From positions 1 to 32,576 of the IMG/VR virus record IMGVR_UViG_3300032294_002509: 32,576 nucleotides of DNA, one strand, 5' to 3'. A program made the position numbers and the translations under genes. The notes beneath the pieces are model-generated. The model searched no databases. It saw only the letters and a program-made list of their open reading frames with translations, and was not told the DNA's origin. Of the stretch, positions 23,216 to 32,572 are shown piece after piece. The number at the start of each line of letters is the position of its first letter. Position 1 is the first letter of the stretch. This stretch comes from a virus.

Positions 23216-23962
23216 TTATTGAGCAGTGGAGGAATTGGTAAACTCGGAGGTCTTTGGAACCTCTGTCGAAAGACACTGAACGTTCAAGTCGTTCCTGCTC
23301 AGCTTTTTATTTATAATGTCTCGAATTATCCTTAAATAAGGAATCACGTTATTTTGCTTAAAATAAACTAATTTTGATGCATCAATAATACAAAGCTCTA
23401 TACCTCTTTCTAAACAAGCTTGAAATTTTCTACTATCATTATTAATTATTTGTTTTAATTTTTCTTTTCCATAAATTGGCTCGTAATGAAAAATACCATT
23501 AAGCTCAAAAGCTAATTTTAAAGATGGGATATAAATATCTAATTCACTGTTGATGGCATCTTTTCTATTATAGTGTATTTCTAAATTTGCGTATAAAATA
23601 GACAACTCTTCTTCTAGCCATTTTTCAAGCTTGGATCGCCTACTACCTTTTGTTTTGTTTTTATTATTAAAACTCGCTGCACATGAACTACTGCAAAAAA
23701 CATTGTTGTATTTTTTATTTTTTCTATTTCTATCTCTCTTTTTAAGAGAGCCCTTTTCATAATTTATTGCTTTATTACATAATTTACAATAAAGAGGGTT
23801 TACTAAATACTTTTTTATTGCCCCCTGTTTTTGTTTATCGGATTGAATTTTTAAATTTATTAACTCGTTACCAGAACGAGGTTTATCTGAATGCACTCTT
23901 TGGTGCGCACTTTTCGCATATTTTGTCTTAAATATCAGATCGCATTTTTCACATTTATACAT
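23216..23962 (-). CDS. homing endonuclease, C2H2 finger plus Vsr-like nuclease
   Basis: 248 residues. The N-terminal finger is C-x2-C-x12-H-x3-H (YKCEKCDL...HQRVH). A second Cys cluster (YCKLCNKAINYEK and FCSSSCAASFNNK) follows. The nuclease domain at about 135-225 has SELDIYIPSLKLAFELNG and IFHYEPIYGKEKL, giving the D...E-x-N core of Vsr/PD-(D/E)XK homing enzymes, then ELCIIDASKL. The last 28 codons run antisense through the entire tRNA-Gln gene, so the end of the protein is fixed by the tRNA sequence. Only minus-strand gene in this plus-strand segment, consistent with mobility. Confidence 0.8.
   Translation of the reverse strand: MYKCEKCDLIFKTKYAKSAHQRVHSDKPRSGNELINLKIQSDKQKQGAIKKYLVNPLYCKLCNKAINYEKGSLKKRDRNRKNKKYNNVFCSSSCAASFNNKNKTKGSRRSKLEKWLEEELSILYANLEIHYNRKDAINSELDIYIPSLKLAFELNGIFHYEPIYGKEKLKQIINNDSRKFQACLERGIELCIIDASKLVYFKQNNVIPYLRIIRDIINKKLSRNDLNVQCLSTEVPKTSEFTNSSTAQ
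23220..23302 (+). tRNA. tRNA-Gln(UUG) with long variable arm
   Basis: Acceptor TGAGCAG pairs with CTGCTCA (7 bp), then G73. D stem GAG/CTC with a G-G-containing loop. Anticodon arm GAGGT/ACCTC with loop CTTTGGA, anticodon TTG (23254-23256). T arm GAACG/CGTTC with canonical loop TTCAAGT. U1-A72 and G73 are glutamine identity elements. Between anticodon and T arms is a 14-base variable arm with hairpin TGTC-GAAA-GACA, unusual for Gln. CCA is not encoded. The complement of this gene encodes the C-terminus of the homing endonuclease on the minus strand. Confidence 0.85.
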
Positions 23963-24074: not shown

Positions 24075-25082
24075 ATGAAGCTTGCATCACTAGAAGTAAT
24101 CAAGTCTATTAAGCCGCACCCAAATGCCGATTTACTTGAAATTGCTCAGGTTTTAGGCTGGCAGACTATTGTAAAAAAGGGGGAGTTCCAAGAAGGGGAT
24201 AAGATAATTTTCATTGTGATTGATACTATTCTTCCCGATGCACCTTGGTCAGAATTTCTTAAAGATAAAAAGAATCCAGACAAGCCAATTCGTCTTCGTA
24301 CCATAAAGCTGCGTGGCGAGTATTCACAAGGACTAGTTCTGCCGCTTTCCGTTCTTTATGGCAATACTTTTGCCGCATCGACTTGGCAGATCGGTGCGGA
24401 TGTTGGTGCTGAACTTGGGGTCAAGAAATATGAAAAAGAACTTCCCGCCTCACTTTCTGGCGAGATTGCAGGAACTTTTCCGGCATATATCATATCGCAA
24501 ACCGATGAAGATAATGCGCTTTCTAATCCTGATATCGTAGGGGAAGTTCTTAAGCATCCTATTACCATTACAAAGAAGTACGATGGCTCTTCGTGTACTA
24601 TTATAATTGATAGCGGAGAGATCACTCATGTATGCTCTCGCCGTCTATCCATCAAGGAATCTGCTTCCAATGCGTTCTGGCATGTTGCCCGAAAACTTAC
24701 CATACCCAAAGATTTTACTGGTGTAATTCAAGGAGAAGTTATGGGGCCCGGCATCCAAGGCAACCAACTTAAACTAATGGAGGCCACGTTATATGCCTAT
24801 CAAATACGTACCGATAACGGTTATATGACTTGGTATAATATGTCACAGTTCTGTCAACATAATCTTAATTGCAACTATGTTCCTATGGTTGCAAACTTTG
24901 CCGCAGAAGAACTTACTCTTGAGGATCTTATTATGATTGCTGACGACCAGACTCTGGATGCAGAGATTGATACCCAAGGAGTACCAGCAGAAGGTATTGT
25001 AGTTCGCCCTTCGGACTATCGTGCTTCTGGTATTGGTCGCCCACTTGGTTTTAAAATTATCAATCGTAATTTTAGAGACTAA
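24075..25082 (+). CDS. RNA ligase, Rnl5/DraRnl-like
   Basis: 335 residues. Nucleotidyltransferase motif I is KKYDGSS with the probable AMP-accepting lysine K168. Motif III-like VIQGEVMGPGIQ and the motif V-like EGIVVRPSDY and FKIINRNF follow in order. The N-terminal 110 residues (KSIKPHPNADLLEIAQVLGW, then VKKGEFQEGDKIIFI) form an OB-fold-like domain before the ligase, as in Deinococcus-type Rnl. It probably seals 5'-phosphate/3'-OH nicks in RNA. In a tRNA-rich phage, repair of cleaved tRNAs is the obvious use, but this is inference. Confidence 0.85.
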   Translation: MKLASLEVIKSIKPHPNADLLEIAQVLGWQTIVKKGEFQEGDKIIFIVIDTILPDAPWSEFLKDKKNPDKPIRLRTIKLRGEYSQGLVLPLSVLYGNTFAASTWQIGADVGAELGVKKYEKELPASLSGEIAGTFPAYIISQTDEDNALSNPDIVGEVLKHPITITKKYDGSSCTIIIDSGEITHVCSRRLSIKESASNAFWHVARKLTIPKDFTGVIQGEVMGPGIQGNQLKLMEATLYAYQIRTDNGYMTWYNMSQFCQHNLNCNYVPMVANFAAEELTLEDLIMIADDQTLDAEIDTQGVPAEGIVVRPSDYRASGIGRPLGFKIINRNFRD

Positions 25083-26502: not shown

Positions 26503-26577
26503 GCACGATTAGCTCAGTGGTAGAGCAGATCCTTTACACGGATAAGGTCGGGGGTTCGAACCCCTCATCGTGTACCA
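26503..26577 (+). tRNA. tRNA-Val(UAC)
   Basis: Acceptor GCACGAT pairs with ATCGTGT (7 bp, one G-U), A73 and CCA encoded. D loop has G-G. Anticodon stem GATCC/GGATA (first pair G-A), loop TTTACAC, anticodon TAC. T loop TTCGAAC canonical. Confidence 0.92.
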
Positions 26578-29158: not shown

Positions 29159-29231
<73 letters not shown>

Positions 29232-29242
29232 CTTTTTTTAAC

Positions 29243-30294: not shown

Positions 30295-30738
30295 GGGGGC
30301 GTTTTAGATTCGACTTAACCGTTGAAATTTAAATATGCATGCAGTGGTTAATCGTTCGGCCACTATAAAAGACGATTAAAAAACTAAACGCAGAGGACAA
30401 TACCGACGCAATCCTAGCAGAAGCAGAATACATCTTCAACAACGCTGACCAGTTCATCGTTGATGAGGTTGAGTTACTAGCTGCCTAAGGAACCAGAAGA
30501 GGATCCTATTAAATCTTTTGGAATCGCAATAGGTTGAGCCAATCATGTGTCGCTCGTTAAACTCTCATGAGGGTGTCTGTAGACTCTTCACTATAGAAGG
30601 TAGGACTCTAAACATGGACAGGTTAATAACACCTTGTTACCTTTAGTCAACCAAAGTACGAAGTTATTTAAGCATGTGAATGAATATTTAGATACCAATA
30701 TTAAGGACACGAGGGGCAGTTCCTCGTCGCCTCCACCA
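30295..30738 (+). ncRNA. ssrA: transfer-messenger RNA (tmRNA)
   Basis: One-piece tmRNA of 444 bases. The 5' GGGGGCG (30295-30301) pairs with CGCCTCC (30728-30734) with the alanine identity wobble G3-U70, then ACCA is encoded. The 5' tRNA-like part has the hallmark GATTCGAC (30307-30314), and TAAGCATGT (30669-30677) is the conserved element before the 3' half. A plausible tag frame starts at GCA 30390 and stops at TAA 30486-30488: 32 residues beginning AEDNTDAILA and ending VELLAA, a normal degradation ending but a long tag. The T loop is GGCAGTT, not TTCRANY, and the D-loop element reads TAGATTCGAC where Escherichia coli has TGG. It rescues stalled ribosomes. Confidence 0.92.
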
Positions 30739-30815
30739 AGTTGTCGCGTAATAACGACTGAAGAGCAAATGGAGTAAAGGCTAAATAGATAAAAATAAAT
30801 CTCCAACAATTTTAT

Positions 30816-30894
30816 GCCAGTGTGGCTCAGCGGCGACAGCGCCACTTTTGTAAAGTGGAATACAACATCGGGGGTTCGAGTCCCTCCACTGGCT
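30816..30894 (+). tRNA. tRNA-Thr(UGU), 11-base variable loop
   Basis: Acceptor GCCAGTG/CACTGGC, T73. Short D stem GCT/AGC with G-G in its loop. Anticodon arm CCACT/AGTGG, loop TTTGTAA, anticodon TGT (30849-30851). T arm GGGGG/CCCTC with loop TTCGAGT. The variable loop AATACAACATC is 11 bases, longer than the 4-5 expected for class I. CCA is only partly present. Confidence 0.85.
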
Positions 30895-30904
30895 CATTTT
30901 CTAT

Positions 30905-30981
30905 TCCTCTGTGGGCCAATGGTAAGCCAGCGCTCTGTTAAAGCGTTCATCATGCTAGTTCGAATCTAGCCAGAGGAGCCA
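30905..30981 (+). tRNA. tRNA-Asn(GUU)
   Basis: Acceptor TCCTCTG/CAGAGGA, G73 and CCA encoded. D loop AATGGTAA, anticodon loop CTGTTAA (GTT), T loop TTCGAAT canonical. Confidence 0.93.
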
Positions 30982-30988
30982 TTTTATA

Positions 30989-31017
30989 TTGACTTGATCT
31001 TTAAAAAAGTGTAATTA
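30989..31017 (+). promoter_or_regulatory. weak promoter candidate
   Basis: TTGACT (30989-30994), 17-base spacer, TAATTA (31012-31017). The -10 is poor; it could serve the small frame at 31035 and the tRNAs beyond. Confidence 0.3.
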
Positions 31018-31034
31018 TTAATAGGATCGACTCT

Positions 31035-31109
31035 ATGAAATGTTTAACTTGTAAAAAAACAATAAAACAAGAATGGCGAAAGGACGCACACACTATAAAA
31101 ACTATTTAA
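31035..31109 (+). CDS. possible 24-residue peptide with CxxC
   Basis: ATG at 31035 opens a frame of 24 residues beginning MKCLTCKKTIKQEW, ending TAA. The start KCLTCKKTI looks like half a zinc ribbon; it may be a decayed gene fragment within the RNA island. Confidence 0.25.
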   Translation: MKCLTCKKTIKQEWRKDAHTIKTI

Positions 31110-31167
31110 TTCCGTTCCAGAGTTAAAAAAAATTTATAATAGTATTCTACTTAATAGATAATTTTAT

Positions 31168-31262
31168 ATGTCGGTGGCAGACAAGAAATGCAACGGTCTC
31201 CAAAGCCGTACACGAGAAGGGATTCTCTTTTAATGTGGGAGCGTTACCCACCCGACATGCCA
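31168..31262 (+). tRNA. tRNA-Trp(CCA), long variable arm, noncanonical elbow
   Basis: Acceptor ATGTCGG pairs with CCGACAT (7 bp), G73 and CCA encoded; A1-U72 and G73 are tryptophan identity elements. D stem GCA/TGC with loop GACAAGAAA (no G-G; A18-G19 at 31184-31185). Anticodon arm ACGGT/GCCGT, loop CTCCAAA, anticodon CCA (31200-31202). A 25-base variable region (31210-31234) contains hairpin GAGAA-GGGA-TTCTC. T arm GTGGG/CCCAC with loop AGCGTTA in place of TTCGAAT. Every stem is intact, so it is not a decayed gene. Confidence 0.8.
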
Positions 31263-31268
31263 ATTCAA

Positions 31269-31353
31269 GCGTCAGTAGCCCGTTAAAGAGGCGGACGAGA
31301 CTGTAAATCTCGCGTCCGAAAGGACTCACTAGGAGCGTTACCTAGATGGCGCA
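31269..31353 (+). tRNA. tRNA-Tyr(GUA), noncanonical elbow
   Basis: Acceptor GCGTCAG/ATGGCGC (six pairs with one G-U; G7-A66 mismatched), A73, CCA not encoded. D stem GCC/GGC with loop CGTTAAAGA lacking G-G (A18-G19 at 31287-31288). Anticodon arm CGAGA/TCTCG, loop CTGTAAA, anticodon GTA. Class II variable arm with GTCC-GAAA-GGAC, normal for bacterial Tyr. T arm CTAGG/CCTAG with loop AGCGTTA. Confidence 0.82.
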
Positions 31354-31364
31354 AATTTTAATAT

Positions 31365-31440
31365 AGCAGGGTAGACAAGTGGTTAAGTCGTCACGCTCAT
31401 AACGTGAAGATCGTGGGTTCAAATCCCGCCCCTGCCACCA
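31365..31440 (+). tRNA. tRNA-Met(CAU), initiator-like
   Basis: Acceptor AGCAGGG with CCCTGCC leaves A1 opposite C72, a mismatch at the position mismatched in bacterial initiators; A73 and CCA encoded. D stem GAC/GTC has A11-U24, another initiator mark. Anticodon loop CTCATAA, variable AGATC and T loop TTCAAAT match Escherichia coli tRNA-fMet. The usual three G-C pairs of the anticodon stem are replaced by A-U, C-G and G-C (TCACG/CGTGA). An elongator Met or lysidine Ile tRNA is less likely. Confidence 0.8.
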
Positions 31441-31441
31441 A

Positions 31442-31527
31442 TTTATTCATAGCAATCATGCACGGAGTTAGCGAATGCGTATGAGGAAGAGTCTTTCGCT
31501 GGACTATGACTTCTCATTATGAATAAA
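31442..31527 (+). ncRNA. candidate structured RNA, three-way junction with kissing loops
   Basis: Lies between tRNA-Met and the broken tRNA-Ile. A closing stem pairs 31442-31451 with 31518-31527 (10 bp). Inside are hairpin A (31456-31462 with 31476-31484, two-base bulge, 13-base loop) and hairpin B (31486-31493 with 31502-31513, four-base bulge, 8-base loop). Loop A AGCGAA (31470-31475) is complementary to loop B TTCGCT (31495-31500). It does not fold as a tRNA: no anticodon arm or T loop. Not recognised; the structure is read by eye. Confidence 0.45.
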
Positions 31528-31537
31528 AATTAATTTC

Positions 31538-31575
31538 AGGACTATAACTCAGTTGGTAGAGTGGCATGTTGATCC
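31538..31575 (+). pseudogene. 5' half of a tRNA-Ile(GAU), interrupted
   Basis: AGGACTA, TA, D arm ACTC-AGTTGGTA-GAGT, G, anticodon 5' strand GCATG and TTGAT match a tRNA to the anticodon GAT, after which the sequence stops being tRNA-like. No complementary TAGTCCT 3' half is present downstream in the window. A homing-endonuclease gene follows. Confidence 0.7.
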
Positions 31576-31594
31576 CTATAGTGTATATATAAAT

Positions 31595-32188
31595 ATGATA
31601 TGTAAGTTTTGCGGAAAAGATTGCGTTAATAACAATAGCCATAGAAATCACGAAAGATTATGTCCGTATAATAAAGATAGGTCGTATACTTCATATACAA
31701 CAAAAGAAAGAGGTCATATAGCTTGGAATAAAGGCCTAAAAGGAGATCCAAGAATGGCAAGCCCATTTAAAGGGAAAAGTAGAAAAAAACATACGCAGCA
31801 AACAAAAGACTTATTATCTAAAATAGCTAAACTAAAAAAACTGGGCGGATATAGAAAAAATGCTGGAAAAAGTAAAAAATTTCAAGTATTAGATTCCTTT
31901 GGAAAGGAAACCACATTGCAGAGTACATATGAGTACAAATGCTACGAAATTTTAACCAAGTTAAATATAAAATGGCTAAGACCAAAAGCATTAAAGTATG
32001 ATAATAAAAACTATTTCGCTGATTTTTATTTAGTTGATTATAAAATATATCTTGACCCTAAAAATTCATATAAAGCAAGGCTAGATAAAGAAAAAATTGA
32101 GAAAGTGATTGAACAAAATAACGTTAAAGTCTATATATTAGAATATGAAAATTTAACAGAAAATAAAATTATAAGCCTTTGTAGTTAA
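31595..32188 (+). CDS. homing endonuclease, C2HC finger, NUMOD-like, PD-(D/E)XK
   Basis: 197 residues from the ATG at 31595; upstream in-frame codons lie in the tRNA fragment. Finger C6? set is C3-x2-C6-x12-H19-x3-C23. HIAWNKGLKGDPRM and PFKGKSRKKHTQQTKDLLS are typical of NUMOD3-type DNA-binding repeats of homing enzymes. The nuclease domain has TYEYKCYEIL, IKWLRPKALKYD and YFADFYLVDYKIYLDPKN, giving the D...D-x-K core. The last five codons and the stop lie within the following intact tRNA-Ile gene. It shares finger geometry with the other homing endonuclease at 23216. Confidence 0.8.
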   Translation: MICKFCGKDCVNNNSHRNHERLCPYNKDRSYTSYTTKERGHIAWNKGLKGDPRMASPFKGKSRKKHTQQTKDLLSKIAKLKKLGGYRKNAGKSKKFQVLDSFGKETTLQSTYEYKCYEILTKLNIKWLRPKALKYDNKNYFADFYLVDYKIYLDPKNSYKARLDKEKIEKVIEQNNVKVYILEYENLTENKIISLCS

Positions 32189-32245
32189 ATGGTATAACCG
32201 CCGCTTGATAAGCGGCTATCATAAGTTCGATTCTTATCGAAGGCA
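32175..32245 (+). tRNA. tRNA-Ile(GAU)
   Basis: Acceptor GCCTTTG/CGAAGGC, A73, CCA not encoded. D loop contains G-G. Anticodon arm GCCGC/GCGGC, loop TTGATAA, anticodon GAT. T loop TTCGATT canonical. The stop codon of the homing endonuclease is inside this tRNA (32186-32188). Confidence 0.92.
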
Positions 32246-32252
32246 TTATAAA

Positions 32253-32329
32253 GGAATTGTAGCTCAATTGGTCAGAGCACCGCCCTGTCACGGCGGGGGT
32301 TACGAGTTCGAGCCTCGCCAATTCCGCCA
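32253..32329 (+). tRNA. tRNA-Asp(GUC)
   Basis: Acceptor GGAATTG/CAATTCC, G73 and CCA encoded. D loop AATTGGTCA, anticodon loop CTGTCAC (GTC), T loop TTCGAGC canonical; outermost T-stem pair is A-C. Confidence 0.92.
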
Positions 32330-32335
32330 GTTTTA

Positions 32336-32410
32336 TCAGGTTGTGGTGTAATAGTAGCATTATTCTCTGTGAAAGAATCGGTCTAGGTGCGAATCCTAGC
32401 CTCCTGACCA
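32336..32410 (+). tRNA. tRNA-His(GUG), A18/G55 elbow
   Basis: Anticodon arm ATTCT/AGAAT with loop CTGTGAA, anticodon GTG. T arm CTAGG/CCTAG with loop TGCGAAT, differing from canonical only by G55. D loop TAATAGTAG differs from the usual TAATGGTAG only by A18. Acceptor CAGGTTG/CCTCCTG has two mismatches (positions 5 and 6), and an extra 5' T can pair with A73, resembling the extra -1 base of His tRNAs. ACCA encoded. Confidence 0.8.
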
Positions 32411-32417
32411 GTTTTAT

Positions 32418-32493
32418 GCGGCTGAAGAGAAACAGCAGACTCGACTCCCTTTCACGGAGTAGATAGTGGGGGCAGCACCCATCAGCCGTGCCA
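32418..32493 (+). tRNA. tRNA-Glu(UUC), noncanonical elbow
   Basis: Acceptor GCGGCTG/CAGCCGT (7 bp, G1-U72), G73 and CCA encoded. D stem GAG/CTC with loop AAACAGCAGA (A18-G19 at 32434-32435). Anticodon arm ACTCC/GGAGT, loop CTTTCAC, anticodon TTC (32451-32453). T arm GTGGG/CCCAT with loop GGCAGCA, the same type as the tmRNA T loop. Confidence 0.8.
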
Positions 32494-32498
32494 ATTTT

Positions 32499-32572
32499 GG
32501 GTTATTAACATAAAAGTAATGTGGGAGTCTTCCAAACTTCATAAGTCGGAGCATTACCGACATAGCCCTCCA
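32499..32572 (+). tRNA. tRNA-Gly(UCC), noncanonical elbow
   Basis: Acceptor GGGTTAT/ATAGCCC (7 bp), U73 (glycine identity) and CCA encoded. D stem ACA/TGT with loop TAAAAGTAA (A18-G19 at 32515-32516). Anticodon arm GGAGT/ACTTC, loop CTTCCAA, anticodon TCC. T arm GTCGG/CCGAC with loop AGCATTA, the third AGCRTTA loop of the island. Confidence 0.8.

Follow-up and report, generated by a model that had tools for sequence, protein, structure and literature searches.

One question raised by the right end of IMG/VR virus record IMGVR_UViG_3300032294_002509, a 32.6-kb stretch (32,576 nucleotides, the whole of which is here called the window) in which a transfer RNA (tRNA) array stands together with a gene for transfer-messenger RNA (tmRNA), is whether the elbow joining the D- and T-loops of these molecules can be built in more than one way. 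The contact between G18 and pseudouridine 55 (Psi55), treated as universal bar some organelle tRNAs, appears to have a second natural form. The window tRNAs for Trp, Tyr, His, Glu and Gly, and the tmRNA, have A18-G19 with G55-C56, and those for Gln, Val, Ala, Thr, Asn, Met, Ile and Asp have GG in the D-loop and UUC in the T-loop, a division made in a preliminary description of this DNA whose coordinates and loops hold. In what follows A18/G55 is termed class B, or the swapped elbow, and G18/U55 canonical; since the G18-U55 contact is replaced, not lost, the elbow of the five tRNAs is called variant. We consider, with a probability of about 0.8, that these tRNAs and this tmRNA are functional and that their elbow is built on a second module, consistent in itself. 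The RNAs concerned are as follows.

30295-30738, plus strand: one-piece tmRNA, A18-G19 at 30306-30307 (Rfam RF00023, 75.8 bits; acceptor and T-arm pairing)
30390-30488, plus strand: tmRNA tag reading frame, 32 amino acids with ELLAA at the end (from translation)
30709-30714/30722-30727, plus strand: tmRNA T-stem, 6 bp
30715-30721, plus strand: tmRNA T-loop GGCAGTT, G55 at 30716
31168-31262, plus strand: tRNA-Trp(CCA), A18-G19 at 31184-31185, G55 at 31241 (ARAGORN, loop-blind finder)
31269-31353, plus strand: tRNA-Tyr(GUA), A18-G19 probably at 31287-31288, G55 at 31335 (D-arm register uncertain)
32337-32410, plus strand: tRNA-His(GUG), A18-G19 at 32353-32354, G55 at 32389 (ARAGORN, Rfam, loop-blind finder)
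32418-32493, plus strand: tRNA-Glu(UUC), A18-G19 at 32434-32435, G55 at 32472 (loop-blind finder)
32499-32572, plus strand: tRNA-Gly(UCC), A18-G19 at 32515-32516, G55 at 32551 (Rfam, loop-blind finder)

The D- and T-loops of the swapped RNAs read ACAAGAA and AGCGTTA in tRNA-Trp, AATAGTA and TGCGAAT in tRNA-His, AACAGCAG and GGCAGCA in tRNA-Glu, AAAAGTA and AGCATTA in tRNA-Gly, ..TTAAAGA.. and AGCGTTA in tRNA-Tyr, and TAGATTCGAC and GGCAGTT in the tmRNA, the A18-G19 call in tRNA-Tyr depending on alignment to the Tyr tRNAs of three phage loci (L112, L124 and L125). As had been noted, just two base changes separate tRNA-His from the loops AATGGTA and TTCGAAT; position 54, 58 or 60 is non-canonical as well in all but one of the six swapped RNAs. 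The chance that the five tRNAs with A18 are the same five that have G55 is 1 in 1287. All five retain a four-stem cloverleaf with a 7-bp acceptor, U33 and a purine at 37. The earlier statement that every stem is intact is nonetheless too strong, as the acceptor of tRNA-His is mismatched at two neighbouring pairs (U5.U68 and U6.C67) and the molecule has A73 and no G-1, tRNA-Tyr combines a G7.A66 mismatch with a weak D-arm, and the T-stem of the tmRNA has 6 bp. In tRNA-Trp the variable region is 25 nt long and includes a hairpin insert, where Trp tRNAs of relatives mostly have 5-6 nt.

These loops were read by eye and with ARAGORN, Rfam and a purpose-built finder that scores stems, U33, purine 37 and spacing only, ignoring the letters of the D- and T-loops. 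This loop-blind finder recovered 13 of the 13 window tRNAs, Glu and Gly included, and gave no match at a score of 44 or more in shuffled sequence; ARAGORN found 11, missing Glu (32418) and Gly (32499). The swapped elbow thus predicts that such tRNAs are overlooked by gene finders, as were 2 of 13 here.

The pairing of A18 with G55 extends well beyond the window. Relatives of the DNA polymerase III alpha-like protein of the window are encoded on 41 viral contigs, and the tRNA regions of these contain further swapped tRNAs (for Cys, Glu, Ile, Lys, Gln and Trp) and a Gly tRNA with A18-U19 and G55-A56. In IMG/VR, 19 loci match a pattern derived from tRNA-Trp, several of them being rich in swapped tRNAs, which span nearly all amino acids and include one of amber-suppressor type (anticodon CTA; L211, minus strand, 807); single phage loci carry 12 (L120) or 8 (L112) swapped tRNAs. 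A BLAST search of 50,697 phage records gave no match for the window tRNA-Glu or tmRNA and short partial matches only for tRNA-Trp and tRNA-His; the tRNA regions of phages FelixO1 and Pectobacterium phage DU_PP_V, reached through such partial matches, proved canonical at 18-55.

Covariation, whose study in related phages with relaxed loop models had been proposed, was counted in 7-nt D-loops, where positions 18 and 19 are unambiguous. The first set comprised 27 A18/G55 and 65 G18/U55 tRNAs with no A18/U55 and no G18/G55 (Fisher 7e-24, relatedness ignored), besides three more tRNAs with U18 or C55; with added cellular loci the figures, in which related sequences are treated as independent, become 48, 116, 0 and 0. 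The 19-56 pair is retained as a Watson-Crick pair in 167 of 169 such loops (161 G-C, 3 U-A, 3 A-U). With U55, positions 54/58 are U.A in 271 of 274 tRNAs; with G55 they are freed from this constraint (A/U in 21, G/G in 16, U.A in 15, C/A in 4, plus rarer others), and all 59 tRNAs of the G55 class keep a purine at 57, nearly all of them having A18. Thr and Val tRNAs with G18-A19 and U55-U56, a compensatory A-U at 19-56, occur at L057, L053, L080-L082, L112 and L113. Positions 18 and 55 accordingly switch together across isoacceptors, phages, SAR11 tRNAs and tmRNAs, and the proposal that A18-G55 replaces G18-U55 is borne out by an association that is complete in the unambiguous loops of phages, cells and tmRNAs.

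For the tmRNA, the RF00023 score compares with a gathering threshold of 47, and tRNA-like ends and a tag frame are present. The gene is not of the RF01849 type: it is one-piece, its 5' GGGG end precedes the tag and its T-arm follows the tag. The tag itself, AEDNTDAILAEAEYIFNNADQFIVDEVELLAA, has 32 residues and is much longer than that of E. coli tmRNA (roughly 10 residues); alignment to RF00023 gives GCA as the resume codon. The tmRNA pattern GGGGNNGNNTTAGATTCGAC occurs in at least 120 stretches in IMG/VR and 49 in bacterial genomes and, among the matches listed, G55 is present wherever a matching T-arm was found, in one-piece and permuted genes of phages and several bacterial phyla; uncounted are 113 pattern matches in which no T-arm scored above the threshold, these being chance hits, duplicates at an offset or contigs cut short. 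The tmRNAs counted, again among the matches listed, comprise 57 with A18/G55, 7 with G18/U55 and none mixed, A18 being over-sampled by the pattern; because the pattern selects A18, what is informative is the invariable presence of G55 beside it and of U55 in all 7 G18 tmRNAs. Swapped tmRNAs lie on Chloroflexi, Bacillota, Gemmatimonadota, Melainabacteria, Planctomycete and Pelagibacter contigs. The T-stem has 6 bp in 12 of the 57 G55 tmRNAs (L143, L179, L241, L248, L260 and window 30709-30727 included) and in 0 of the 7 with U55, so that T-stem length may be linked to the form of the elbow. The Rfam alpha_tmRNA consensus is already swapped (AuAGGAUCGAC, T-loop GGCgGUA), and a 2005 report records a G where U342 would stand in Caulobacter tmRNA, and GG in Reclinomonas mitochondrial tmRNA (PMC1168896); the tmRNA part of the present finding is therefore an extension of an existing record.

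That the swap is confined to phages is rejected by finds in cells. A covariance model built from 20 swapped tRNAs, which separates most of them from canonical tRNAs, led to a Pelagibacteraceae genome with swapped tRNA-Val(GAC) and tRNA-Phe and to a Bacilli genome with a swapped tRNA-Cys. In the SAR11 family 157 of 197 genomes match this class-B model at 3e-12 or better, and every match fetched was a swapped Phe, Val-GAC or His, the weakest being left uninspected; genome G248 is matched and has no swapped tRNA, so its match must be canonical and 157 is an upper figure. From 33 Rfam matches in the near-complete SAR11 genome G246 (two matches besides His were not fetched singly), 31 tRNAs serving every amino acid were recovered, and the only Phe and the only His tRNA among them are A18/G55; the swapped form should therefore work in translation. 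At the syntenic Phe-His locus His is canonical in some SAR11-family genomes and A18/G55 in others, and tRNA-Thr(GGU) is of the swapped form in two further alphaproteobacterial genomes. Among 398 Pseudomonadota and 392 Bacillota sampled with strict, under-counting filters, swapped tRNAs were found only in the centre genome of each sample; other high-scoring matches were canonical on inspection. From its SAR11-like tRNA-His, lacking G-1 and having A73, an alphaproteobacterial host for the window phage would be a guess.

The Psi55 synthase TruB (PF01509) was detected in 28 of the 197 SAR11-family genomes, with 14 of 14 controls positive, and in 0 of the 11 members first checked, some of them near-complete single contigs. 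A strong class-B match is present in 3 of the 28 TruB-positive and 125 of the 169 TruB-negative genomes (Fisher 2e-10, hand count), a comparison confounded by shared ancestry and incomplete drafts. In TruB-positive G248, of which 1,148,300 of 1,160,202 bases (99%) were read, all 32 tRNAs, Phe and His included, are canonical, although its tmRNA is swapped. TruB loss as a requirement for the swap is ruled out by TruB-positive genomes with class-B tRNAs.

How might such an elbow be held together? The normal tRNA elbow already amounts to a T-loop into which a purine intercalates (PMC4810234), and in riboswitches a UGNRA T-loop combines a triloop G with an outside A in a composite GNRA (PMC2258182); similarly, a T-loop with G at position 2 receives an adenosine (PMC11363276). 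Swapped elbows have in their sequence the position-2 G, the position-4 purine and an outside A partner. By analogy, G55 would take the place of U55 at the T-loop turn, giving a GNR turn instead of a UNR U-turn, and A18 would slip between 57 and 58 and form a sheared-type pair with G55 in a composite GNRA-like stack. RNase P, the ribosomal L1 stalk and other readers of the elbow would still meet the same flat 19-56 face, so that processing and translation could go on. Psi55 and 2'-O-methylated G18 (Gm18) would be barred because their target bases are lost, as would 5-methyluridine 54 (m5U54) when U54 is gone. The switch may be a rare event in which two successive changes lead, through poor intermediates, from one good state to another; it would have occurred many times independently, favoured or tolerated where Psi55 is missing (SAR11) and among the rapidly evolving tRNA sets of phages.

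Several observations weigh against this reading. Independence among related sequences is assumed in the covariation counts; an Asn tRNA (L080:8283) looks A18/U55 and a Met tRNA (L120) G18/G55, both with longer D-loops in which position 18 is ambiguous, so that the earlier claim of no mixed cases stands for the window and is qualified by these two apparent cases in the wider set. The proposed geometry relies on analogy, no close precedent was found for the A54/U58 version, and class-B tRNAs occur beside TruB in five genomes (G062, G196, G052, G265 and G282).

Several competing reasons why the exchange took place have to be weighed, whether they operate within the structural explanation or alongside it. 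One, which we hold to be tentative, is that independence from modification was selected, A18-G55 holding the elbow without Psi55 or Gm18 and so spreading in hosts that lack TruB and in phage tRNAs that outpace host modification; the scarcity of TruB in the SAR11 family, the concentration of strong class-B matches in TruB-negative genomes and the all-canonical tRNAs of G248 agree with it, but common ancestry (TruB was perhaps lost once), the class-B Val of TruB-positive family members (G265 and G282), the class-B Thr and Cys of TruB-positive genomes outside the family and the many incomplete drafts all count against it. The escape from modification put forward in the preliminary description is thus partly upheld: loss of the TruB and TrmH targets, and of the TrmA target when U54 is lost, follows from the sequence, but a selected benefit does not. 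Near-neutral switching between equivalent modules by drift through rare intermediates, more often in phages as their tRNAs are under weaker constraint, is plausible and only somewhat short of an even chance; many independent cases over unrelated RNAs and isoacceptors, the lack of a fixed isoacceptor set and the presence of both forms at syntenic loci favour it, although the swap is very rare in the non-SAR11 cells sampled and the near absence of 18/55 intermediates points to a cost of crossing. As reasons for the abundance of swapped tRNAs in phages, drift between equivalent states and modification independence are about equally likely.

It is unlikely that the changed elbow serves phages to elude host nucleases or defence factors reading G18-Psi55. 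The many class-B tRNAs of L120 and L112, and the window RNA ligase gene, which suggests that tRNA damage matters to the phage, speak for such evasion, but cells use the swapped form in essential tRNAs and tmRNAs and, to our knowledge, tRNA-cutting defences act on the anticodon or acceptor parts; the apparently single-copy SAR11 tRNA-Phe and tRNA-His and the bacterial tmRNAs tell against a phage-specific nuclease escape, which had been suggested earlier and is not needed to explain the swap. The link with TruB absence in SAR11 fits modification independence better than evasion. Decay or decoy function, in which loops drift in genes no longer serving translation, is very improbable, even given the acceptor mismatches of the window tRNA-His and the weak D-arm of tRNA-Tyr; decay had already been judged unlikely. 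Non-standard pairs per 17 bp of stem number 0.16 in class B and 0.24 in canonical tRNAs, class-B stems covary (compensatory changes in Trp stems included), discriminators are retained, CCA is encoded in 84%, the changes are coordinated, not random, and the sole Phe and His tRNAs of a cell are swapped; on stem pairing and covariation this explanation was rejected. The preferred reading, a second self-consistent elbow module, is compatible with either drift or modification independence. In its widest form we would give it even odds: A18-G55 would be a fully functional elbow with no need of Psi55, one that repeatedly arose among phages, in the tmRNAs of several phyla and in SAR11 tRNAs that are essential, and in SAR11 it would be tied to the loss of TruB, a synthase otherwise nearly universal.

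The remaining tRNAs of the window, found by both ARAGORN and the loop-blind finder, have canonical elbows and served for comparison.

23220-23303, plus strand: tRNA-Gln
26503-26577, plus strand: tRNA-Val
29159-29232, plus strand: tRNA-Ala
30816-30895, plus strand: tRNA-Thr
30905-30981, plus strand: tRNA-Asn
31365-31440, plus strand: tRNA-Met
32175-32245, plus strand: tRNA-Ile
32253-32329, plus strand: tRNA-Asp

At 31539-32188 a tRNA 5' half (ggactataactcagttggtagag...) runs into an open reading frame (31553-32188) that gave no match in a Pfam search and is possibly a mobile endonuclease that split the tRNA gene. The RNA ligase gene lies at 24075-25082 (PHROG 968, Pfam RNA_ligase), and its product possibly acts in tRNA repair.

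The open-access literature searched, which does not extend to subscription papers, yielded no account of the swap in tRNAs. Suppressor tRNAs with altered D- and T-loops have reportedly been selected, which bears on priority. A natural alternative in many environmental phages and in essential tRNAs of SAR11, an ocean bacterium that ranks among the most abundant, would reveal what the elbow truly needs, and the role of Psi55 becomes directly testable because one and the same lineage has lost TruB and altered the base that this enzyme modifies.

Among known systems, a study of SAR11 tRNA signatures concerns the same organisms, and a search of its text for T loop, elbow, G55 and position 55 gave no match (PMC3937112). 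The two-piece tmRNA of alphaproteobacteria (RF01849) shares A18-G19 and a G55-type T-loop with the window gene but is permuted where the latter is one-piece; in the available passages of the 2005 report (PMC1168896) the T-loop G is not tied to a D-loop change and tRNAs are not involved. The UGNRA T-loop, or lonepair triloop (PMC2258182, PMC11363276), resembles the swapped elbow in a position-2 G that takes an outside A, but is internal to other RNAs and usually has U.A at 1/5, whereas here a tRNA elbow is concerned and 54/58 vary. With the canonical elbow (G18-Psi55, G19-C56; PMC4810234) the swapped form has in common the cloverleaf, the 7-nt T-loop, the 19-56 pair, purine 57 and the placing of one D-loop purine for intercalation; it differs in that 18-55 is A-G, Psi55 and Gm18 are impossible and 54/58 is often not U.A, so that what both retain, a 19-56 face and a purine locked in the T-loop, suggests itself as the requirement of the elbow.

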